In this document: positions 7,475-21,264 of the stretch, in pieces
Layout: the number at the start of each line of letters is the position of its first letter
How positions within the stretch are numbered: the first letter of the stretch is position 1
Assembly: GCA_006384855.1 (NCBI GenBank)
Contig: VCJN01001809.1
Span: 62,001-126,000 of the forward strand
DNA length: 64,000 nt
Direction: 5' to 3'
Origin: Tetraselmis striata
Lineage: Eukaryota > Chlorophyta > Chlorodendrophyceae > Chlorodendrales > Chlorodendraceae
The notes under the pieces: model-generated
Told to the model about the DNA's origin: nothing
Seen by the model: only the letters and a program-made list of their open reading frames with translations
The model's database searches: none
Made by a program: the position numbers and the translations under genes

Positions 7475-7552
7475 CATCACCACTACGGACATCACCCGGC
7501 CAACAACGACTCTGACCAGCAGCCGACAGGATGCCAGGAGGCCTACCCGTTA

Positions 7553-8837
7553 ATGGGTGTGTCCTCGTTGGCACCACACCACGGCGGCCTGCCCGTCGTG
7601 CTCACCTTCACCACCACCGCCCCAGGAGGGGCAGCCACCGGAGCGCAGGAGGGGCAGGGCGAGGACGACGAGGACGATGAATTTCATGAATCCTTGCACG
7701 TCCCCTACTCGAACTCTGACGACAACTTCCAGTTCCCGTTCTCACACCCATGGCGTGCGCGCCATTTCCGCTCTCAACCCATTCCCACCCCAATTCAACC
7801 TCTATGCCTCGCTTCACCCGCATTCCCAACCTCAGCGGCACTGGCGGCCCACGACGTTCATACGGGGCAGGGCGCCCTACGTGGAGACCTGCCACCGCCG
7901 CTCCCAATACTCACCGCTGCCCCGCTCCTCCATATGCCAAGCTCTTCTTTGGTAATCGAACATCTCTTCTCGCCCTGCCATGGCCCATCGGCATTTGAGG
8001 TGGAGGCTGTGGTGGAATACGGGTTCTCCATCCACGCATTCATCGGCGCCGACCCATCAACGGAGGCTCGCACTATGTGGCCACATCACCTACAGGTCAT
8101 CAGCAACAAATACCCGGGCCGCCTGCCTCCATCAGCATTTCAGGACTGTCATGACGGGACCCCCATGAACATCAACGACATCACTGTCACGGAGCTGGAG
8201 CGGCTGCGCCCGTTCACCCTCGTCGTGTCAAGCACACCGTTACAACCATGGTCACCCACGGGCTCACGCCTTGACTGGCAGGACCATCGCTCTCGTGCCT
8301 TCGCCTCCGCCATCAATTTCATCCGCTTCTACATGTCTTCTCAGCCCACACCAGTGCGCTATATTGTGCAGACTTTTTAGACGCGCTGGCCTTACCTGAA
8401 GCACTCTCCTCACTTGGCGCATGCAACATCGTGCGCGCGGCGTCCTGCGACTCACCGCGACACCCTTCTGTGGACCATTATCACTCAACCGCAGGACATC
8501 CATAACAGCGTCGACAACGTCGCCGCCATCAAGCTCGCCGACCCCGGCCCCTTCAGTGGCTACAGCATCTACAACCCGGTTGCCGGGCGCACGACCTCGC
8601 CTCTCCCTATGCCGGTCTTTCAGTTCTCCAACGCTGACTATCTGATGGACGAGTTTCAACCCTCGGGCCAGCAGGAGGGACCCCACGCACCGCCACCCAT
8701 GCTGCCATCAGCGGAGCTTGCTTCGGCACAGGAGGGGCCCCCATCTCCACATCACAACGAGCAGCACCCTCCGCACCATCAGGAGGGGGACGCCACGGCA
8801 CTGTCGGCTCCTCACACCAGCACACAGGCACAACTAC
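7553..8837 (+). pseudogene. C5-cytosine DNA methyltransferase domain, decayed, inside the copia element
   Basis: The open frame 7553-8380 carries, in order, a motif-I-like SLVIEHLF with VEYGF and GADPS.EAR (from 7937), then KYPGRLPP, NINDIT, a PFTLVVSS strand, motif-IV-like TPLQPWSPTG (near 8230), then DHRSRAF and YIVQ. Spacing and order fit C5-MTases: motif I, the P-C-Q loop, the G..D.RS..F helix, then Y.VENV. Two frame changes follow. After the stop at about 8378, another frame gives ALSSLGACNIVRAASCDSP, and a third resumes with HRDTLLWTI, matching motif VIII. The catalytic Pro-Cys is Pro-Leu here. From 8640 a low-complexity linker with repeated QEGP leads to the insertion point. Inference: a captured methyltransferase, now inactive. 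Confidence 0.68.
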
Positions 8838-8841
8838 CTTC

Positions 8842-8863
8842 AACAGTAATGCAACCTATTTTG
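8842..8863 (+). repeat. Left terminal inverted repeat of the methyltransferase transposon
   Basis: AACAGTAAT, GC, then AACCTATTTTG. The other end, reverse-complemented, has TT in place of GC and is otherwise identical. It is followed directly by TCCCGAGG, a TTTTGTCCC-type motif that recurs across the element. Confidence 0.88.
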
Positions 8864-9187
8864 TCCCGAGGCACGCGGTGCATTGTGGTTAGGTCTAAAT
8901 TAGGGTTTGGGGGCAGCAGTGGGATTGAAAGCTAATATGAATGCCGGTTGGTTCATTTTGTGCCAAGTCGGGGAAACCAATTCCGTCCAAGCAGGGACAA
9001 ATCAAAAGAGTGAAGGAAACGGGATGGTTACAAGAAGTTTGCGCCATCGGGGGCTGAAACTCTGTCCAAACTGGGACAAAAAGAAGTGCGGGGGCCGTGA
9101 TGGCTACAAGTAGTTTGTGCCGTCCGGGGCTGAAACTCAGTCAAAGCCGGGACATAACATATGAGCGGCTAATTTTGCGGAATTGTA
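8864..9187. other. Left subterminal region with repeated GGGACA motifs
   Basis: No gene. It contains three imperfect direct repeats of about 65 bp (near 8957, 9039 and 9110) with the skeleton TTTGTGCC, GGGGCTGAAACT, GTCCAA, GGGACA. Motifs of the form TGTCCAAACTGGGACAAA are short inverted repeats. These are candidate transposase-binding sites, but no binding data can be inferred from sequence alone. Confidence 0.5.
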
Positions 9188-12100
9188 CTACATATCATCA
9201 TCTTCGATCACATAATCCCCTCGGCGCTCTGCCGCCTCTTGCCTCCTCTTCTCCGCCGCTGCACGCTCTTCCCGCTCCTCTAACTCGGTCATTGGAAGGC
9301 GTAGACCCGGCCACTTCTCGAAGTCATTTGGACGCAGTCTTTGAGTCTCGTCCCATGGCTTCTCTTTGAACCATGCGGTCATCCTGGACTTCATCCCAGC
9401 GATTTGCGTCTTCTGGTTGTCAATGAGGATCGTCTTCAAGTTCCTGTGTGTGAACGAGTAGCTATGATCCATGTGGTCCCACCACACGGAAAAGGCCGCA
9501 GGGACCTGGAAAAGGCGTGGCAAACCGCACAAGGCGTTAATTTTTTTATGCTGACCCCATTAAGACACTCACCCGGGTTGCACCCCTCACGCACCGCGGT
9601 TGTCCCGGTTCCGGCTGTGACGTCGGCGATTGTTGTCCCGTCTGTTGCCGCCATCTTAAGGTGCTTGGCGAAGAGAGCGATAGGCTTTTGGTACTTGTTC
9701 ACCGTCTGTATGTTCTCGTCCTTCAATTTCGCACTGTCTTTGAAGTGACCCAACAGGATGGATGTAGAGAATCTGGAAAGGCACAACCGGCTTAGCGAGT
9801 AGAATATACAAGCCGGCTATTTTCCACGGATCAAATCTCACCTTCGGGGATCATCGAAACGGATGTTGTCAGCTATGATGCTTGGCGGGGGCTTCCTGAC
9901 GTAGAGGTAGTACTCAGCGTCGTGACGCAGAGAGCTGCCCATCTTCATCCCGCAATCCTTGGCCCAAGTCAGGACGTGATAGATGAGGTCCTCAGCTTGT
10001 TTTTGAACGGCTGTGATTGCGGATCCAAGTTGCTGGTCCGAGAGGTGAATGAAGAAATGGCACCCATCGAGAGCAGTGTGGACGTCAGAAGATCCAGTCA
10101 GGATATTCAACTGCCTGCGCGGGGGAAAAATCGGGAATGAGATAAATGAAAGCACAGTCATCTACGCACCGGGGTTGTGGGGGTTTGTCTTGCCTGGCGA
10201 AAGCAAACACGTCGTTGAAGTCGTCCGTACCCCACGCAGCATCCTTCGAGTCCCATGTGTGCGAACCAGCTCCGAAAAGCGCGTCGGCAATGAAGATTGT
10301 TGCCTTTCTGGCACGAACTGCCGACATGGCGTCCGCGACGAATTGTTTTGTCGCGGGAGCCTTAAAGTTCCCCTCCACAATGCAAGCCTTGCAAAGCTCC
10401 GTGTCTAACCAGATCTCCTCATCCTTGTCGACCTTTTCGCCCTTGGGCATCACCGGAAGTGCCCTGGCCTGTGTGTATTAGAAAACAGATTCGGGTTAAT
10501 AGCTCACAACGAAAATTCAGAAGAGCATTGTGGTTGCACAAGATCTTAGTTGCCTTCATCGATATCCACAGCTCATTAGAAACATTCGGAGCGGAAACCG
10601 CGATAAGCTCCGGCGCACATGCCAGAAGAGCAAACTCTGTGAAGAAGGAGATGACCAAGTCCGGCATCTGATTCTTGATGCGATACGCCTCACTCCTGAT
10701 GGTGGTGTCGGTGGCCGCGATATGCTCTCGAACCGGTAGTGGTGTGAGACAATCGGCGGATTTCATGTCCCCCCATCTGGCAGGAGGGGTCAGCAAGACC
10801 ATCAACGGACCGGATCGATGAGCACCTTTGAACAAATCCTGAAACTTTCTAGGGAAGCCTGTTGGGCCGAGGTCATCAACCTTGGCTCGGAACTTGGTGA
10901 TGGCGTCAAGGCGAGCGAATTTGGGAGAATGGGTCACTCACCAGGAGTTTGTGCATCGACGTGTCTCCCACGACGGTGTGACCCGCCTCGTTGAGCTTCA
11001 TAGACATGTAGCGGCAGACTTCCGGCGAGAGGCCGATGTACATCTTAGCCGACGTGAGGTGGATGCCTTTGTTGGCTTTGTAGATTTCCGGGTAGTTTTC
11101 TTTCACCATGCGCTTCGCCTCCCGTCTGTGGTTGCCGTCGATGTTGGCTTGAAGCGCGCCGTAGGCGCTAAGAAACTCGATGATGACGTCGATCTCCGGC
11201 TTGTAGGAACTTGAATCCGCCAACCTCGGGTTCTCCCCGCCTTCGTCTGCTGCGACTAGCTCCTTGAAGTTGGCCATGGTCTGAGCGAGGGGCTCGTACT
11301 CTTTGCGGAACGTTAAGCCTATATTCTTGGCAACCACTGGAAAGGACACTGAGAAATTCTCGGCGGGCAAGGAAGGATTCCTCTGAATAACAAATGCAAG
11401 AAATGGATGTCAGTAAGTTGCATTGTGTATTGATTTATATTTGACTACACATATTTGATCCGGTACAACAGGTCGCGATAGGCTTTTACCTTGTAGCTTT
11501 GCGCCACCATATTGCAGTCTTGCAGCTTTGGGGAACGGAATTCAAATTCCGGCGGCGGAGCGACGAACTTATCGGATATGAAGCTGAAAATGTGAGGCAG
11601 CCCCGTATCCTTGTCGACGACGAGGTTAACTCTGTCGGCGTATAACGTGTTGATGTCGCCACCGTGAGATGTCTTCACCTCTGGATCGGCAATCTCGACT
11701 CTGAGGTGGCCGTAAGAGATCCAGTCGACGGCACCGGTGTTGTGGAAGCCATTCAAGGCCGGCGGGACGGCCAACGTGTTGACGTATGGAAGCGCGTTCT
11801 TAAAATCCTTGTCAATGTTGGCCAAGTCATTGATGTCAATCTGACCAGACGCGAAACCTGTCAGCGCCTGCGCCAGCACATTGCGCTCGACCAAAGTCCA
11901 TGCGTAGTAAGACTGGAACCGCGGTTGGAAGCAGAGTGGCGGCTGGATCGCGTGGAGTAGCAACCTCTCAAAGCTGACATCGATCCTTAACTCCTTGTGC
12001 ACTGTCAAGCGATAAGGTTCAAGACAGATCTGTAGTAACAAGCATAAGAATATTAATACTTATTGAAACACGACATTGACACGAATTCAGACATCATATA

Positions 12101-15100
12101 AGCTTTACTCACCCCGTAGTTTCCGGCCGAGTCCAGCTCGACGTCCTTGATCTTTCCGATACACGCGAGAAGTGGCCTCTTCGGATCATCGAAAAAGTCC
12201 TTGCCAGTCAGCAGGCTCGCCTTATGCAATTCGATGTACAAATAGATCTGTATCTCAGCACTTGCGTTCTTGAACCAGTGGATAGTCCAGCTCCTTGAGG
12301 TAAAGTCGATGTAGGAGTCATGTTCTTGGGACCCGTCCCTCTCGTCAAAGAAGTCGTCGTAAGAGGCGACCGTCATCAGCTTTGTCTTCCTCTCGGGTCC
12401 GGGAGTGCCGGTGATGTCTAGAGCTTGCTTACGCTTCTCTGCCGCCCGTTGCCTCTGTTCTTCCTCTGTGCCGAAGACCTCTTCATCCGTGCACATACTG
12501 AGGAATTCAGGAACCCTTCTCGGAGCCTCGGCAATAGGGGCTCGAGAACAAGAGGCTCCAGAACCGGACGCTTGCTCGGTAGTCGGCGCTGGAGTCTCGA
12601 GCTCGGCCTCTGGCTCCGGGTCAAGCCGAGTGGGCTCGGGCTCCGGCTCGGGCTCCGGCTCGGGCTCCATCTGAGTTGGCTCAGTTTCAGGCTCATGTCG
12701 AGGCTCTGGCTCGGGCTCATTGGGCTCTGTTTCAGGCTCCGGCTCGGGCTCCGGCTCCGGCTCAGTGTGCTCTATTTCAGGCTCAGGCTCTGTTTCCGGT
12801 ACTTGAGGCGGGCCTTTAGACAAAGAAGAGCCTTGATTCGGGGAACCTGTAAAGAATGAGTAGAGAGTACTCAACACACCTGCGGTGGGCGTCGCGATTA
12901 ACTACTGAACGGTATCGCCATACACCATCAAAGCCAAGCGTGATTTTTCTTACCTGGGGATCCCGATTTACTAGCTGCTTCCGACGCGGTTGCCTGCGCC
13001 AATTTACCTGTTGGAACGTCAGATAACTCCTTGACGAGAAAGTAATCGATGTAAGGGTGAGAAGGCAGGGAGTGATACTTTCAGTCACAATTACCTGGAG
13101 TCACAATCGTCTCTGAAACCTTTTCTTTTCCCTTGGATTCCTTTGAAGCTTGAGTCGCTACTTGCTCATTTGCGCGTCCTTTCGAACCTGTCAACACACA
13201 TGATTTCAAACAATGTAAATATGACACAGTGCACTCACAAAGGCAGGGATTGATACTTTCAGTCACAATTACCTGGAGTCACAATCGTTTCTGAAACTTT
13301 TTCTTTTCCCTTTGATTCCTTTGAAGCTTTAGTCGCTACTGGCTCATGTGCGCGTCCTTTCGAACCTGTCAACACACATGATTTCAAACAATGTCAATAT
13401 GACACAGTGCACTCACAAAAATGATATGATTGGAGAGGCAAGGACCTGATTGATAGTAAGCTTGCATGAGCTTTTCGTAATCGATTAGCCTTCTCGCTGT
13501 CTGCATTTGAGCATCTGAGAGGACTTGGCCGCTCTTGATTCGGGCCCTCAAAAGCAAGGCGGCCGATCTTTCTCCTTGCGAGTGCGTGCCGTAAGCCGGC
13601 ACCCTACCTCCTAAAAGGCTCGGTTTCCAGGGGTTACCTGATGCCTCAGCGCCGGCTCTAGATGCAGAAGCTGAGGCTGCACGGCTCTTCTTCGCAGCCG
13701 GCTGCTCGGGCAGAGAAGATGACGCCTTGTGTTTTCTCCCGACTAGCGCTCCGAGCGCATCGAATTCTTTTGCTTTCTCGGTAGGTTTTGATGTCCGCTT
13801 GGACCTTCGACCTATAAATATCATATCCTGTCAGACCGTTTCGTCCCGCTGATGACAGACCGTTTCGTCCCACTGATGACAAACCCTTTCGTCCCACTGA
13901 TGACAGACCGTTTCGTCCTACTGATGACAAACCGTTTCGTCCCACTGATGACAGACCGTTTCGTCCCACTGATGACAAACCGTTTCGTCCCACTGATGAC
14001 AAACCGTTTCGTCCCACTGATGACAAACCGTTTCGTCCCACTGATGACAGAACATTTCGTCCCACTGATGACATAACGATTCGTCCCACTAATGACAGAC
14101 CGTTTCGTCCCACTGATGACAGACCGTTTCGTCCCACTGATGACAAACCGTTTCGTCCCGCTGATGACAGACCGTTTCGTCCTACTGATGACAGACCGTT
14201 TCGTCCCACTGATGACAGACCGTTTCGTCCCGCTGATGACAAACCGTTTCGTCCCACTGATGACAAACCGTTTCGTCCCACTGATGACAAACCGTTTCGT
14301 CCCGCTGATGACAAACCGTTTCGTCCCACTGATGACAGACCGTTTTGTCCCACTGATGACAGACCGTTTCGTCCCGCTGATGACAAACCGTTTCGTCCCA
14401 CTGATGACAAACCGTTTCGTCCCACTGATGACAGAACGTTTCGTCCCGCTGATGACAAACCGTTTCGTCCCGCTGATGACAAACCGTTTCGTCCCGCTGA
14501 TGACAAACCGTTTCGTCACACTGATGACATTTCGTCCCACTGATGACAAAACTATTTTCAATACATTATGTACTGCGGTTTAATAATGTAATGTCTGTAA
14601 GTACTGCGCTTCACACTAATATTAAACCACTCCTTACGGCGGAGTACAGGCAGAGGTTCCCCCTGGCCGCTCTTCACCCCCACCCCCTCCCACCACCAAT
14701 TAGCATCCTTACTGCTTGCCGCAGCTGCCTCGACGGGACGTAATACTACCCTGCACGACCCTGATGCCGCTCGTCTCGTTTGGGTTTCTATTCCCACTCG
14801 TCTGCCTACACCTCGAGCGGTCCTAGATTACACCGCTTCTACATGGAACCCTAACCGAACTCGCTAGATCTGGCCGCATCACGCGTCGAGCAGGCAGGCG
14901 GCTACTGTACGCTGCCACTCGTCTGCCTACACCTCGAGTGGTCCTAGATTACACCGCTTCTACAGTGAACCCTAACCGAACTCGCTAGATCTGGCCGTAT
15001 CACGCGTCGAGCAGGCAGGCAGCTACTGTACGCGCGCGCAACTCACCTGGGGTGGCGTCGTCCTTGTCTTCCTTGTCCTTGGCAGGCTCGTTCTTCTTCG

Positions 15101-15107
15101 GCGCCAT
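9188..15107 (-). CDS. Transposon-encoded N4/N6-type DNA methyltransferase-like protein (13 exons)
   Basis: Exons on the minus strand: 15047-15107, 13446-13811, 13273-13365, 13095-13187, 12954-13007, 12113-12846, 11451-12029, 10942-11382, about 10508-10890, 10170-10468, 9842-10114, 9573-9772, 9188-9504; about 1,290 residues. The start [16 protein letters not shown] is basic. Then come a serine/alanine-rich region, a Glu-Pro repeat region (12600-12810), a conserved-looking central region of unknown type, and at the C-terminus the order of a class-beta amino-methyltransferase. IFIADALFG followed by WD and W aligns with the DPPY catalytic motif; a LTWAKDCG and EYYLYVRKP region follows; then [10 protein letters not shown] and [11 protein letters not shown], the AdoMet-binding FxGxGTT loop, and a last strand LKTILIDNQ. 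Family role: methylates adenine N6 or cytosine N4. The DPPY position reads DALF, so activity is uncertain. Some exon borders (10508, 10890) are approximate. Confidence 0.72.
12590..12815 (-). repeat. Glu-Pro coding repeat in the methyltransferase gene
   Basis: Hexamer-like GGCTCC/GGCTCG repeats on the plus strand give a long acidic EPEPEP tract in the minus-strand frame, followed by a [13 protein letters not shown] stretch. It is probably a flexible acidic linker between the N-terminal tail and the folded part. Confidence 0.75.
13084..13425. repeat. 178-bp tandem duplication of a 93-nt exon and its intron
   Basis: Exons 13273-13365 and 13095-13187 are near-identical copies, each beginning (minus strand) GTTCGAAAGGACGCGCA and ending ACTCCAG before GTAATTGTGACTG. 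The flanking introns are also duplicated. Both encode GSKGRA.E followed by a Lys/Glu/Ser-rich stretch. At 93 nt the copy keeps the frame, lengthening the linker by 31 residues. Confidence 0.85.
13830..14550. repeat. 24-bp minisatellite, about 30 copies, in intron 1 of the methyltransferase gene
   Basis: The unit contains GTCCCACTGATGACA followed by AACCGTTTC. Variants alternate A/G before CTGATGA and A/G in GACA(A/G)AC. Because 24 is divisible by three and the unit lacks stops in several frames, it creates long spurious ORFs on both strands (for example 14092-14583 plus and 13658-14506 minus). The acceptor of intron 1 lies at 13812, just inside its edge. Confidence 0.92.
14793..15034. repeat. 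121-bp tandem duplication in intron 1
   Basis: Two copies begin CCACTCGTCTGCCTACACC at 14793 and about 14914 and run to GCTACTGTACGC. They differ by only a few bases. They lie between the minisatellite and exon 1 of the methyltransferase gene. Confidence 0.85.
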
Positions 15108-15647
15108 TCTGGCGGTAGGTAGGTTGACGCGGTAGATGAGCGGGTTTCTTGGTGGGAAGCGGTGAGGGAGAGGTGGAAATGACGTGGTTTCTGTCTGCCG
15201 CCGCTCTGACCCCTGCTAGACCAACGGCGCGCGTGCGCACACTATAGTGTACCTCGTCGTCGTCATCAGGTTCATGTATTTTGCACCGCGACGAATATAC
15301 AAGGCTAACTACTGCGACTATATATTACTATTACTGGAAGATAAAATATTCCCTACTCGAGAGTCATAACGGTACGAGAGTACAGTGGCGTGGCAATAAT
15401 ATTCCTTCATGGGATGATATATTCCTTGCATTGGATTCGGGTGTACTTACTAGTATAGAACTTTTTCCGACATACGAAAGAAACACGAAATAATAAGGTG
15501 TTTGAGTCCTCAATTATTTTGACCCGTAGCTGGATATTATGCCCCCCGGTCAACGGCCCGTCCGAGAACGGTCATCGGCCGTCACTCTTCCTCACCACAG
15601 ATCACAGTCCTTCACCCCCCCCCCCCCCCCCACTCGCCCCGCGCTGC
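15108..15647. promoter_or_regulatory. Divergent promoter region of the transposon
   Basis: 540 bp separate the methyltransferase start (15107, minus) from the transposase start (15648, plus). The middle (15270-15490) is AT-richer than its surroundings and includes TATATATTACTATTACTGG and AAATATTCC. A C run lies at 15615-15632 shortly before the transposase ATG. No specific factor site is recognised. The arrangement implies shared control of both genes. Confidence 0.5.
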
Positions 15648-18600
15648 ATGGCGGCGGTCGAAAGCATGGCCTCTTCTCCAGGATCCGGCGCGTCGGACAC
15701 TACACTTACATTACCGACGTGTTCGTGCCGCAGCGGGTACTCGTGTGATTGCGACGCGCGTGCGAGTGATCGTAAGGAGCCTGAGAAAAGGAAGTACACG
15801 TGGGGCAAGGGCTCCGATGAGGTCGCCGAAAGCGATAATGGCAAGGTCTCGTCTCTGATCAGCAAGCGCACCTCTCGCGATTGTATCCGCCTCATGCTCG
15901 CCAAGGAGGCTAGCGAGCAGTCGCCATGCTGTTCGCGCAAGTGCGTGCACAAGCTATACACACAGTGCGGAGAGGCCCTCGTTGATGCCGTGTTGGACCG
16001 TGCGTTGACCGTATACTCTAGCAATCAGAACCACTCCTTTGACCGGCTCGCTCAGGTTCTCAGGGGTGGCTACGAGTCGGCATCCGACAAGTTCGATTAC
16101 ATGTTCGATCACGGTGGCTACTTGCGATCTTTCGATCATCGCGGCCCCATCTACACGTGTGGGCGTGCGTGGGAGGTCTTGCATCAGGTCTCGAAACACA
16201 GACGTCTCGTGATCCAGCGGTCGGTGGTGGATAACGAACCCACGTACATCAGGCAGCGCAAGCAATACGAGAGCAGACAAACCGGACCGAGGGAGCATGT
16301 GCGCATGTTTCTCGAGCACTTCTTCTCGGATGACCTCGGTCACGTCGAGATCATGCCTTTTCATGACGGAAACAGCGGGACCTTCAAGAAGCACCTACCT
16401 CCCTGGATGACCAAGATTTGCGTCTACTACTACTACAAGTCGTGGGCCGAGGACGACAACGCCATTCTCCGTGGTGAGGCCCATTTTGTCCCACTGATGA
16501 CAGACCGTTTCGTCCCGCTGATGACAAACCGTTTCGTCCCGCTGATGACAAACCGTTTCGTCCCACTGATGACAGAACGTTTCGTCCCACTGATGACAAA
16601 CCGTTTCGTCCCACTGATGACAAACCGTTTCGTCCCGCTGATGACAAACCGTTTCGTCCCGCTGATGACAGACCGTTTCGTCCCACTGAGGACAAACCGT
16701 TTTGTCCCGCTGATGACAGACCGTTTTGTCCCACTGATGACAGACCGTTTCGTCCCACTGATGACAGACCGTTTCGTCCCGCTGATGACAAACCGTTTCG
16801 TCCCGCTGATGACAAATCGTTTTGTCCCACTGATGACAGACCGTTTCGTCCCGCTGATGACAAACCGTTTCGTCCCGCTGATGACAAACCGTTTCGTCCC
16901 ACTGATGACAAACCGTTTCGTCCCACTGATGACAAACCGTTTCGTCCCACTGATGACAAACCGTTTCGTCCCGCTGATGACAAATCGTTTTGTCCCACTG
17001 ATGACAAACCGTTTCGTCCCACTGATGACATGCCGTTTCTTCCCACTGATGACAAACCGTTTTGTCCCGATGATGACAAACCGTTTCGTCCCGCTATCGC
17101 CAGAACGTTTAGTCCCACCGACGCCGGACCGTTTCGTCCCACTGATGACAGAACGTTTCGCACCGCTCATGGCATACCGTTTCGTCCCACCGACCACAAA
17201 AGTATTTGTCCCACATAATTAGCCGATATCGTCCCACTGCAGAGAGAACGTCTTGTCCCACTGCTGAGAGACGGTTTAGTCCCACTACTGACATACCGTT
17301 TCGTCACACTTATGACAGATTGTTTCGCCATGCTGATTACAGAATTATTCACCCACTACCGATACAATTATTTCGACCACTTTAGACCGAACTTTTCTGT
17401 CTCGCATTATGAGACCTTATTTGTATACCGACCTATCATGCCCCTGCCCCTTTGTAGATTTGGCTACCGAGAGCGAAGTGAAGCTCGCATCGTTCGACAC
17501 TTTCCGCCGGACTTGGAAGGAAGACTTCCCGGATGTCACCACGCCGAAGGTGAAGCGATTCAGCCACTGTCCCATATACGCGGCGGGCAAAGCACTCAGA
17601 GACCAAGCTCGCGAGATTTGCACAAAGGACATGACGCCAGAGGAACGTCAAGTGCACCGTCAACATCAGCAGCTGGTGAGGCGTCAGGTCAGAGCTGAGC
17701 AGAAGGTACACCTCGAGAGAGTGCGCCAGGAACGAAGGGATCTGAACAACGCCGTCTTCCAGTCGCGCCTTGGCCATGGAAACTTCTTCTTCTTCGAAAT
17801 TGATAGCATGGACTCCGCGAAGACCCTGCTGCCTCACTGGGTTCGCATCCCCAAGACTGTGAAGCCCGACATGCTCCTCAAGTACCACCTCACCTGTGTG
17901 AAGTACGACGGATACCGCCCGGACGACATCTACTACTACACCAACACCATCCCCCACGATTCGTCCACGACGTGCACTCTGATATGGATCACGATCATGA
18001 AGGTGAGCTCGTTAGCCTCCCGATAGGTTCGCCGTGGTTGTCCGGTAGCCATGGACTGATGAAATCTTGTCTGCGATGCAGGAAATTCAACACCGTGGTA
18101 GAAAGATTCCGTACATCAGAATCCAGATGGACAACACCGTCAGGGAGAACAAGAATAGGAACGTGGCGGCCCTCTGCAATTGGCTTGTGTCTATCGGCAT
18201 CTGCGACGTCATTCATTTGGTCTTCTTGCCTGTCGGGCACACTCACGAACGGGTTGACCAGATCTTCAGCCGCATCAGTCTTGCGCTATCTCGCAGCTCC
18301 GCCTACACAATCGAGGCCTTTCTTGACTTGGTGGCGAAGGCATTCTCGCCCACTCCGGAGATTGCTGAGCTCTCATTCTCCCTCGACTTCTCTGAGTGGT
18401 TAAGGCCCCATTTCCAAGACCACATTCAGGACATCAGTAAGCCGCACAAATTCGAGTTCACCCGTGACGACGCCGCCGCGTCTGGCGGCTCGTTGCGCAC
18501 CGCCTTGTGGTCCAACACACCGCTTTCTGAGCCCGTGCAGATCTTGAAGAGCGCGCCAACTGGGACGCCCGAGATTCGTGCGGGCCGGCCCCTTTTGTAC

Positions 18601-19733
18601 GTACGCTCTCTGCGACAAAAAGAAGCCCGACGCGGTGAAGGTCCAGAGGTACTTGGATGATTTCAAGAAGGTCAGGTCGTACATCACGGACCTGGCGGTC
18701 CAGTGGCACTTCTCCCCAGTCGAGCGCGAGAGCTGGAAGAATCTGCTCGACGACTTGGATGAGATGCAAACTGCTCCTTCGGCAGCTTTCTCCGGGTTCT
18801 GGCCGCAACGGAAAGAGGAAGTTGACGACTTCTTGCGCGAGCATGGGCAGACCGCGCCTGCTGAGGCACGTCACACGATGGCTACCAACGCAGACCTCAA
18901 CAATGCCGAAGCCGCTCGCGTGGAAGCCGAGGTTCGTGCTCAAGTGCTTCAAGATGACAGCGCCTTCCGGGGAGTTCACGCCGGCGCCAAGGAGAGGCTT
19001 CATGACAACACATCGCCCAGCGATGCAAAGGGCTCGAACCTCGTTGTCATCGACGTCTCCGATGTGAGTCCCATTGTTTGCCATTTTTGTCCTTTACGGG
19101 ACAAAACGATTTGGTTCTTCTACCTTGCTTGTTATTTTGTCCCAACTGGGACAAAAATGGCGTGGCGTCTCGCTCGGGACTAACATAGCTCGCGGTCTTG
19201 GTCATCGTTAGGTGCATGAGGAAGACAAGTGTCCTGAAACTCTTGGTGATTGGGAGTCGAGATTTGTCATCGGGCTTGTGAAGTCGCGCGAGACTACCGA
19301 AGACACGTTGACCGTGGCCGTATACGAGCCCTTCCATGCCGATGCAAAGGGCAAACCCCTCATGCCCCTATGGTTGTACGCGCAGACAAAAGGAGGGAAG
19401 AAGCCAGTTGACACAAGCTGGGAGAAGTGCCTGACGCTTCCTTGGAAGCTTGTTGAAGCCGTCCCCCTATCGTACGCGAAGGCCATCCACGACGCGTCGG
19501 GAAGTCGAGAGGTATTCAACGAGGACGGCACCATGGTCAGAAAGAAGTGGTACGGTAAAAGCGTCCAAGTCGTGAAGACATATGCGCAAACTGGGTGGCA
19601 AATCAGCCAGCCACGAAACAACTGCGTCCACGTCATGTCAACCACCCCAGCGCAACGCAAACCCGGCGGAGTCGTCAAGTATAACGCAGCCACGAAGAAG
19701 GACTTGCTTGAGTTGGGGATGCTCAACGAATAA
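15648..19733 (+). CDS. DUF7869-like transposase (probable DDE nuclease), four exons
   Basis: Exons: 15648-16473, 17458-18002, 18082-19063 and 19212-19733. Junction reading fits: the first splice joins R-D-LATESEV in phase. I take the ATG at 15648 (MAAVESMASS) because the frame upstream runs through a C tract. Exon 1 has a Cys-rich CSCRSGYSCDC stretch and CCSRKCVHKLY. Exon 2 has a charged helical segment ending near HWVRIPKTVKPDM. Exon 3 has the family core: IQMDNT..ENKNRNVAAL followed 25 residues later by VFLPVGHTHERVDQIFSRIS, the D and GHTHE..DQ pattern of DUF7869 proteins, thought to be transposases with an RNase H-type fold. The C-terminal exon (VHEEDKCPETLGDW on) is unrecognised. A one-base frame change near 18580-18592 breaks exon 3 unless an unseen intron lies there. 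It presumably moves the element by acting on the inverted ends. Confidence 0.75.
16474..17457 (+). repeat. 24-bp minisatellite, about 34 copies, filling intron 1 of the transposase gene
   Basis: Donor GTGAGG at 16474, acceptor TTTGTAG ending at 17457. From 16482 the intron holds the same 24-bp unit as 13830-14550, in the same plus-strand orientation. Copies are regular to about 17090 and degenerate to about 17350. The unit is therefore sense in this transcript and antisense in the methyltransferase transcript. Confidence 0.92.
19064..19211 (+). other. Last transposase intron with TTTTGTCCCA palindromes
   Basis: GT at 19064, AG at 19210-19211. It contains TTTTGTCCCA, two bases, TGGGACAAAA (about 19135-19156), a perfect 10-bp inverted repeat, and a second imperfect one at 19086-19106. 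A related palindrome lies at 19809-19829 just after the gene, near the right end. Confidence 0.7.
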
Positions 19734-20004
19734 ACTATCAGCAACGTCTTGTGGCTAGCTAGCCGCTGGATGTAATAATCATAATAAATATTGATTTCAT
19801 TGCCTCATCTTGTCCCATTTTGGACAAAATGCTCCAAAACCAACATTGGATATGCGTCGCGGCTGGCCTTCATGCTGTTGAATGCTGCACTGCACCCAAG
19901 GTCTACAAACCCAAGCTACATCACCAGTGAGTCTTAAGTACTGATAGTAAACCCGGGAACTAGGGTATAAACAAACCCTACGGTGCAAAATGAATTCCAC
20001 GGCG
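19734..20004. other. Right subterminal region of the transposon
   Basis: No gene. An AATAATCATAATAAATA stretch after the transposase stop could serve as a polyadenylation region. A TTGTCCCATTTTGGACAAAA inverted motif lies at 19809-19829. Near the end, GGTGCAAAATGAATTCC and GGCGCAAAATAGG echo the terminal repeat. Confidence 0.45.
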
Positions 20005-20026
20005 CAAAATAGGTTAAATTACTGTT
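20005..20026 (-). repeat. Right terminal inverted repeat of the methyltransferase transposon
   Basis: The reverse complement starts AACAGTAATTTAACCTATTTTG-like, matching the left end at 20 of 22 positions. It is followed on the plus strand by CTTC, the target duplication. Confidence 0.88.
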
Positions 20027-20030
20027 CTTC

Positions 20031-20714
20031 CCATTATGTCGACCTCAACGACTACCACCCAACACTGGTGGCATCCGCGATCGCGGCGGTTGTGCGCCCC
20101 CACTCAGCGCGGCTGCCAGCCCTCGCTCTACCAGCACCCATTGTCCGCGTGTCCACGGCGCCGCGCACCTATCAAGAGGACATCTGCAGCACTCGCCCCG
20201 ATGACTGGAAGACGTCCATGAACCATAAGATCAACTCTATCACCACGATGGCACTTTTCGCCTGGGTCAACGTCCCTGAGCTTCGACGCAACAACGAGTC
20301 CGCGGTCGTCCAACAGATGGCGTGGGCCTTCACGGCGCAGCACAAAATGGCAACATCATCAGGCGCGAGGCCGGCGTGATCGTCCGCGGCAATCTACTCA
20401 CCACCGGCGAGACCTACAATGACGCCAAGACCTATGCCCCAGTCGTTCACTTCGTCGCCTTGCGCACCACCATTGCTAACACCCAGGTTCAACTCACCTG
20501 GGAGCTCTATCAGTTCGACGTCCGCTGTGTTTTCCTCAACGCCGATCGAAATGCAGATACCTATGACTACCTCTCCCCCGGCTGTGGCCGTAAGGACCAG
20601 GCTTGGAACCCCGTTGAGGCACTCTACGATCTGCCGCAGGCACCCAAGGCATGGTTTGCTTTTCTTCCTTTCTACGTGACTTCGACTTCATCGGCTCCGC
20701 ACCGGACGGCGTGA
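20031..20714 (+). pseudogene. pol: Copia reverse transcriptase, N-terminal half only
   Basis: In frame with 8414-8837 once the nested transposon is removed. Copia RT landmarks appear in order: DDWKTSMNHKINSI, a VNVPE stretch, a frame change near 20340, then VIVRGN, GETYND..TYAPVVHF, ALRTTIAN, YQFDVRCVFLNA (the conserved QfDv..AFLna) and ALYDLPQAPKAW. It stops soon after. The YVDD catalytic segment and the rest of the palm are absent, an internal deletion of roughly 150-200 codons. RT would synthesise element cDNA; this copy cannot. Confidence 0.85.
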
Positions 20715-20759
20715 TCCATCTTCATCGGGAAACCTGCATCATTGACATTCTGACTACCT

Positions 20760-21264
20760 TTCACATGACGGAGAGCAAGCCTCGCCGCCTGCCCTGCACG
20801 CTGAATACCAACTTTCATAACACTGCAGTCACCTACCGTGCGCAGGTTCGGAGGCAACGTGGCCATGTTTACTGCCGCAGCAGAGTTCGTGGCGCTCTGC
20901 GTGGTCTGCACATGTCTGGCGGTTATTCACGTTCTTCTGCGCCAAGCTCAGCCACCCCACTGCTGCCCCGGTGAAAATATGCGGGGACAATCGCGCATGC
21001 ATCGTTCAGGTGCAACATGGTATAATTACAGGCGCGGAACGCCACATTGACCTCCAGTTTCAGTATGCGGTCCAACTCTACCAAGACGGCATTATCTACA
21101 TGTACTACACGCCTACCCCGGCCCACCTGGCCGACTTCATCGCCGAAGCGCTGCCGCTGCCTACCTTTCTTCATTTCCGCGCTTTCCTGATGGGGTCATC
21201 CGAGGAGCCTTGCGTTGCGCCCCTGCCGCCATCAGTCCTGCGCCCACGGGATTCCACAGGATGA
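20760..21264 (+). pseudogene. Copia connection/RNase H remnant
   Basis: MTESKPRRLPC at 20767 is the RT tail (MSDCKPVxTPL equivalent), so the intervening catalytic part is deleted. From 20838 one frame reads FGGNVAMFTAAAEFVALCVV (the sTaEAEfva motif). From 20971 another reads KICGDNRACI, AERHIDLQFQYAVQL, YTPTPAHLADFIAEAL, the D-N, H-I-D and A-D landmarks of copia RNase H. Frames shift between them. Confidence 0.85.

Follow-up and report, generated by a model that had tools for sequence, protein, structure and literature searches.

A young, high-copy DNA transposon of Tetraselmis striata pairs a probable DUF7869 transposase gene with a methyltransferase-type gene of altered catalytic motif

It was reported in 2025 that Sola1-1_Ec32, a 21.5-kb DNA transposon of Ectocarpus, carries opposite its transposase a gene for a 1104-amino-acid (aa) protein that combines a ParB-like domain with an N4/N6-type methyltransferase (MTase) domain (PMC12477816). 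The same paper states that similar proteins occur in transposons of green and red algae, citing Iyer 2011 and Petroll 2025; in the literature found, this short passage with its two citations is the only treatment of transposon-borne amino-MTases of algae. The element described here occupies positions 8842-20026 of a 64,000-nucleotide stretch of DNA from the chlorodendrophycean green alga Tetraselmis striata (contig VCJN01001809.1, positions 62,001 to 126,000), hereafter the window. The copy is damaged and belongs to a young DNA transposon of high copy number, which very probably encodes a DUF7869 transposase together with an accessory MTase-derived protein acting on the element's own DNA. The original prediction had regarded such a pairing as unfamiliar. 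The kind of element is already known from the Ectocarpus precedent, while DUF7869 is not mentioned in the literature searched; it is the altered catalytic motif of the MTase that makes the element worth testing.

An adenine-methylase domain is also carried by retroelements of the DIRS1 type (PMC3537659, PMC3266345, PMC5890265). That of the ALOG-type DIRS1 elements is called catalytically inactive by Iyer and Aravind (PMC3537659).

The limits of the element are marked by short inverted ends, which in the window copy align over 30 bp with 25 identical positions and are flanked by CTTC on both sides:

8838..8841: left target site duplication, CTTC (a single CTTC at empty sites)
8842..8871, plus strand: left terminal inverted repeat, AACAGTAATGCAACCTATTTTGTCCCGAGG, from the inverted-end alignment
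19997..20026, minus strand: right terminal inverted repeat, from the inverted-end alignment
20027..20030: right target site duplication, CTTC

Genome searches were made in the 224-Mb assembly of T. striata. Of 135 candidate places for the empty site, with the flanks joined by one CTTC, 40 were scored; all 40 match over the full length with 92-96% identity, and the junction is ungapped in all three of those viewed at the level of single bases. The first 359 bases of the element gave 403 candidate places, of which 40, the element itself among them, were scored; each of these matches over the full length with 98-100% identity. Ten further copies, chosen because both genes are listed about 10 kb apart, were fetched. 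The sequence AACAGTAATnnAACC stands at the matching left end of nine of them, and both ends could be located by pattern in nine, giving a length of 12.2-12.6 kb. Perfect 4-bp duplications (ATAT, ATGT, GTTA, GTTC and ATGC) border five of these nine. Identity between copies averages 97.7% (range 96.3-99.6%; 45 pairs among ten aligned copies, with the window included and C1496 left out), and predicted proteins of the jgi/Tetstr1 set match those of the element at up to 100% identity. The host repeat around the transposon (7475-8840 and 20031-21264) resembles a Copia retroelement by eye.

Two spliced genes run divergently within these ends, a DUF7869 gene on the plus strand and an MTase-type gene on the minus strand, and they travel together. 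The pairing was counted in the best 150 of 590 DUF7869 candidates and the best 150 of 425 MTase candidates. A divergently oriented MTase match lies 3-12.5 kb from at least 76 of the 150 listed DUF7869 matches, and 78 have one within 12.5 kb in any orientation; the chance expectation is ~0.013 per match, or about 2 per 150. Accidental capture of genes by transposons is known, and the minus-strand gene could be an ordinary host gene which the inverted ends happen to enclose in some copies. Given the frequency of the divergent pair and its recurrence in a second family, this is highly improbable. The original prediction of a bounded element with inverted ends, a 4-bp duplication and two divergent spliced genes is borne out, and the MTase-type gene is very unlikely to be an independent resident of the host genome.

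The second family came from a genome search with Pfam family PF01555 (N6_N4_Mtase), which listed 104 matches, including a second repeated MTase (family 2) that is 30% identical to the MTase of the window's family (family 1; E-value, E, 1e-23). With P0065, a DUF7869 relative 35% identical to family 1, as query, DUF7869 genes were found on the contigs of family 2 MTases. Pairing in this family was counted over 39 MTase rows, which lie outside family 1 and outside the five best, unrelated matches, and the best 150 of 169 DUF7869 matches. A listed DUF7869 gene shares the contig in 15 of the 39; 14 of the 15 pairs are divergent, the exception being at C2618, and ten of those 14 lie within 15 kb. 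The family 2 DUF7869 protein is 31% identical to that of family 1 over 619 aligned columns at one locus and 29-50% identical per stretch at another. Because the same divergent pair recurs in this long-diverged family, the pair is older than either family.

Several further loci were seen in the course of these searches. A transposon-like member of the second family with a divergent DUF7869/MTase pair lies at C761:75580-92320 (L035, L036), and the introns of its MTase gene hold a different minisatellite, built around CATGCGTCCATGCTGTGGATGGA by eye. In its left flank (L036, 1-1080) a tyrosine recombinase-like frame was noticed by eye, perhaps of a DIRS or Crypton element. The 533-aa predicted protein P0041 (jgi Tetstr1/459753) has DUF7869 and N6_N4_Mtase in one frame and is probably an internal-deletion derivative or a fusion made by gene prediction. 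An intronless frame of 637 aa at C1010:98304-102224 (L029) resembles type III modification methylases and has DPPYN; its contig may be a bacterial contaminant.

The plus-strand gene has four exons and encodes a DUF7869 protein of 956 aa:

15648..16473, plus strand: DUF7869 gene, exon 1
17458..18002, plus strand: DUF7869 gene, exon 2
18082..19063, plus strand: DUF7869 gene, exon 3, with QMDNTVRENKNRN and LPVGHTHERVDQIF; in the window copy a 4-nt insertion at ~18598-18605 breaks the frame
19212..19733, plus strand: DUF7869 gene, exon 4, stop codon included

The frame is open in nine of 11 copies; the other two are the window copy, with its 4-nt insertion, and C54, with a 1-nt deletion. DUF7869 (PF25273), which had been predicted for the product of 15648-19733, is the sole Pfam match above the cut-off in the plus-strand protein (149.5 bits against a cut-off of 26, E 1.1e-43, for the full protein of copy C154; E 4e-38 for one exon piece). 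The gene is under purifying selection, with a pooled ratio of nonsynonymous to synonymous polymorphism (pN/pS) of 0.19 in the nine open copies. Across 11 aligned DUF7869 proteins, whose identity to the first is as low as 20%, conservation is at least 90% at D385, Q466, D468, N469, K475 and FLPVG499-503. It is because of these conserved acidic residues and the position of the gene in the element that the protein is taken to be a DDE enzyme, and we infer that it would cut and join the element's ends.

The minus-strand gene encodes a protein of ~1,560 aa with a C-terminal N6_N4_Mtase domain. In a 15-exon model with one GC-AG intron the whole gene is open in four of 11 copies (1,559-1,576 aa); for the five 3'-terminal exons (609-610 codons) an open frame is seen in 16 of 31 copies. 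The GC-AG intron is a proposal of this analysis. The coordinates in the window are those of the model of copy C154 mapped onto it:

11451..15107, minus strand: MTase gene, exons 1-7, with the start codon at 15107 (individually 15047-15107, 13446-13811, 13273-13365, 13095-13187, 12954-13007, 12113-12846 and 11451-12029)
10942..11380, minus strand: MTase gene, exon 8, with G(N/S)HRREAKRM (a GxHR pattern, ParB-like by eye)
10918..10941, minus strand: remnant of intron 8 at the junction of an internal deletion
10554..10917, minus strand: remnant of exon 11, its 5' 425 nt deleted
10194..10468, minus strand: exon 12, with the position of motif IV; the model ends this exon at a GC donor (AG/GCAAGA)
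9842..10114, minus strand: exon 13, core of the PF01555 match
9595..9772, minus strand: exon 14, with motifs X and I
9188..9505, minus strand: exon 15, C-terminal tail

The window copy is defective in both genes. Its MTase gene is deleted for exons 9-10 and for 425 nt of exon 11, and opposite this gap (intron 8 to exon 11) the ten other copies hold 1,307-1,692 nt. Towards the 3' end of exon 7 (~11461) it is 5 nt shorter than most other copies, and the donor after exon 11 is GC instead of GT. The 13-exon gene of the original prediction, reconstructed around two MTase exons, fails here: it is open in the window only and in none of ten other copies. The extra A in the window which opened its splice falls inside the intron after exon 12 of the 15-exon model, and the 13-exon reading is partly an artefact. 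A 178-bp tandem duplication (13062-13419) has doubled one MTase exon with its intron; C2782, one of the ten other copies, apparently has a single unit.

The predicted methyltransferase match was found, and the gene is read as derived from a DNA methyltransferase of bacterial type. N6_N4_Mtase is the sole Pfam match above the cut-off (26.7 bits) in the minus-strand protein, with 27.2 bits for the window's own domain as spliced, 32.1 bits for the corrected domain of C154 and 37.9 bits for the MTase of family 2; the whole 1,260-aa reconstruction from the window scores 23.4 bits, under the cut-off. The GC-AG intron raises the score from 27.2 to 32.1 bits; besides this intron, the queries compared differ in the copy used and in length. 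The MTase protein matches the DNA methyltransferases of PHROG 67 (E 2.6e-8), and a three-sequence profile searched against the PDB aligns its motifs X and I to MboIIA, RsrI and CcrM, with E-values of 0.0034 to 0.063. In the alignment to MboIIA and RsrI, motif X (QKPIAL) precedes motif I, the S-adenosylmethionine (AdoMet) motif, and both lie C-terminal to motif IV. With an overall identity of 30% between them, the MTases of the two families both retain motif X (QKPIA) and motif I (GTGTTAV).

With DUF7869 on the plus strand and N6_N4_Mtase on the minus strand as the only domains above the Pfam cut-off, and with short inverted ends and 4-bp duplications, it is extremely unlikely that a virus (Polinton-like) or a retroelement (DIRS) was inserted here in place of a DNA transposon. 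Such an origin would be in keeping with the MTase domains of DIRS elements and with two MTase genes elsewhere in the genome (L032 on C803 and L033 on C1597) that look virus-like by eye; these have CDLPYG, unlike the transposon's gene, and are possibly integrated viral DNA. Two pattern scans for a bacterial or viral donor of the MTase found no relative. The MTase of family 1 has no phage match at E 1, and that of family 2 has weak phage matches only, the best of them 25% identical to the query over 75% of its length (E 2e-3). Phage proteins considered as yardsticks for ParB-MTase proteins did not serve; the one translated begins with its MTase domain.

The canonical catalytic motif IV reads (D/N/S)PP(Y/F/W). 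In both families of the transposon it is without the two prolines, being DALF in family 1 and DSNY or DNNY in family 2. The position named in the original prediction as DPPY-like is therefore the right one, with other residues in it. The DPPY of MboIIA is aligned onto DALF, but in a weak piece only (3.9 bits, independent E-value 250). Of 172 retrieved proteins, 59 span the position, reading DALF (50), DSNY (6), DNNY (2) and DALL (1), so that the Asp is always kept and the aromatic residue is kept with one exception. A direct search of all 172 found (D/N/S)PP(Y/F/W) nowhere along their length. Read from the DNA of 31 copies, the motif is DALF in 18 and DTLF in one; in the remaining 12, the window among them, it is unreadable, the joined frame being shifted or the region lost. 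Exon 12 of the window taken alone reads DALF. Another candidate, TPPARWGD, was rejected as motif IV since it lies far upstream and, by eye, is not kept in family 2.

Selection on the MTase gene was measured in the 16 copies with open C-terminal exons, over 610 columns. Pooled pN/pS is 0.70 over all columns, 0.49 upstream of the MTase region, 0.94 over the 288-codon MTase region, 0.45 in the 189-codon core from motif IV to motif I, and 1.00 in the tail. The whole gene, measured in four copies, gives 0.52. This weak constraint speaks against a strong recent need for the MTase protein in each copy, and it would fit a factor supplied in trans or a factor that is losing its role.

With DALF or DSNY/DNNY in the place of DPPY, methyl transfer by the MTase-derived protein is unproven. 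Of the original claim that the element encodes its own methyltransferase, a gene of the beta-class amino-MTase type stands; a working enzyme is not supported, given the altered motif IV and the weak selection on the domain. The accessory may still be an active enzyme that, despite an unusual motif IV, methylates adenine at N6 or cytosine at N4 and so marks the element's own DNA, a possibility placed somewhat below an even chance. The conservation of motifs X and I across the families, the persistence of the Asp and the aromatic residue, and the pN/pS of the core favour it, whereas the complete absence of the canonical motif from proteins and readable DNA copies, the pN/pS of the whole domain and the published inactivity of the ALOG-type DIRS1 domain do not. 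The domain may instead be a pseudo-enzyme retained as an AdoMet-sensing or DNA-binding part, for which the chance is close to even. In its favour, both families have lost the two prolines and kept motifs X and I, and the DIRS1 domain offers a published parallel; the Asp and aromatic residue that persist at the catalytic position argue the other way. A further reading can be put forward tentatively: two long-diverged families would have kept an AdoMet-motif protein of the MTase fold in which DPPY has become D-x-x-(F/Y), acting either as a non-canonical methyltransferase or as an AdoMet-sensing reader of the element's own DNA, including its 24-bp arrays.

All 11 copies carry these arrays, built from a 24-bp unit, TTTCGTCCCACTGATGACAAACCG, in intron 1 of each gene:

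13835..14550, plus strand: 24-bp tandem array, ACCGTTTCGTCCCACTGATGACAA, in intron 1 of the MTase gene (present in 11/11 copies)
16484..17317, plus strand: 24-bp tandem array in intron 1 of the DUF7869 gene

In the ten other copies the unit also stands in a third place, intron 8 of the MTase gene, where C1376 has one counted unit; this place is missing from the window owing to its internal deletion. The left end of the element contains TTTTGTCCC, and the motif TTTYGTCCC is common to the arrays and the left end. Counting both strands, the window's element holds 58 occurrences of it, five of these outside the arrays, and the rest of the window holds none. The motif is put forward as a candidate binding site for a protein of the element.

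The preferred reading, a transposon with a DUF7869 transposase and an accessory acting on its DNA, can be given a mechanism. The MTase-derived protein would bind AdoMet and the element's own DNA, with the ends as predicted targets and perhaps also the arrays in the introns, in which TTTYGTCCC recurs as in the left end. By marking or occupying this DNA it may aid the transposase, shield new copies or influence silencing. Self-marking and protection are offered as hypotheses. With many young copies and two diverged families, self-marking is directly testable in this genome. The altered motif IV of both families leaves two options, catalysis by a new variant or an MTase fold that now serves for binding, the latter option being suggested by the inactive domain of the DIRS1 type.

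A number of observations weigh against this reading, in addition to the missing prolines and the pN/pS of the MTase region, whose core is more constrained than its surroundings and far less so than the transposase gene. Four of the nine two-ended copies are without perfect 4-bp duplications. The gene models are based on open frames and splice consensus, and one intron requires a GC donor; the JGI models examined are without this GC-AG intron and skip ~30 residues there. The DUF7869 protein has no sequence match in the PDB. In family 2, 24 of the 39 MTase rows have no DUF7869 gene on their contig among the matches listed (the best 150 of 169), and inverted ends or a duplication were not found for this family, although two of its copies share break points.

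Among described systems, enzymes of DNA modification are found beside transposases in fungal DNA transposons with TET/JBP genes, which belong to KDZ, hAT, EnSpm and other superfamilies (PMC12730594); those enzymes are oxygenases and not MTases. Retroelements with DNMT genes are an analogue with another enzyme (PMC5890265). MTase domains of the Methyltransf_26 or C5-cytosine type occur in viral Mariner elements (PMC3627910). These share with the present element the combination of a DNA transposon and an MTase domain, and the domain types differ. Judging from the virus names, the Mariner elements with MTase domains presumably sit in giant-virus genomes. The DIRS1-type elements are likewise mobile elements with an N6-adenine-type MTase domain, but they are retroelements with a reverse transcriptase and a tyrosine recombinase, and the MTase domain is part of Pol. 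It is described as Dam-like (PMC5890265), whereas the domain here matches PF01555. The main text of a 2025 survey of N6-methyladenine in eukaryotes (PMC12695648) does not mention Tetraselmis.

The element appears most like the Sola group, judged by its gene layout and the length of its duplication. Target duplications of 4 bp occur in other superfamilies besides Sola. They are a feature of Sola2 elements (PMC3627910), and here a 4-bp duplication with short inverted ends is seen in the window and in five of the nine other two-ended copies. A ParB-like domain is reported for Sola1-1_Ec32; in the accessory protein of T. striata no match to one was found in Pfam, the PDB or NCBIfam, and the G(N/S)HRREA stretch common to both families resembles ParB by eye only. 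At 12.2-12.6 kb the present element is shorter than the 21.5 kb of Sola1-1_Ec32, and the likeness is one of layout. Genes on opposite strands, a long accessory protein, 4-bp duplications and the GxHRREA stretch would together fit the ParB-MTase class of algal transposons. Like Sola1-1_Ec32, this is a large algal DNA transposon with a long accessory protein of the N4/N6 MTase type encoded on the strand opposite the transposase, and the same role is proposed for the accessory protein in the published account of Sola1-1_Ec32.

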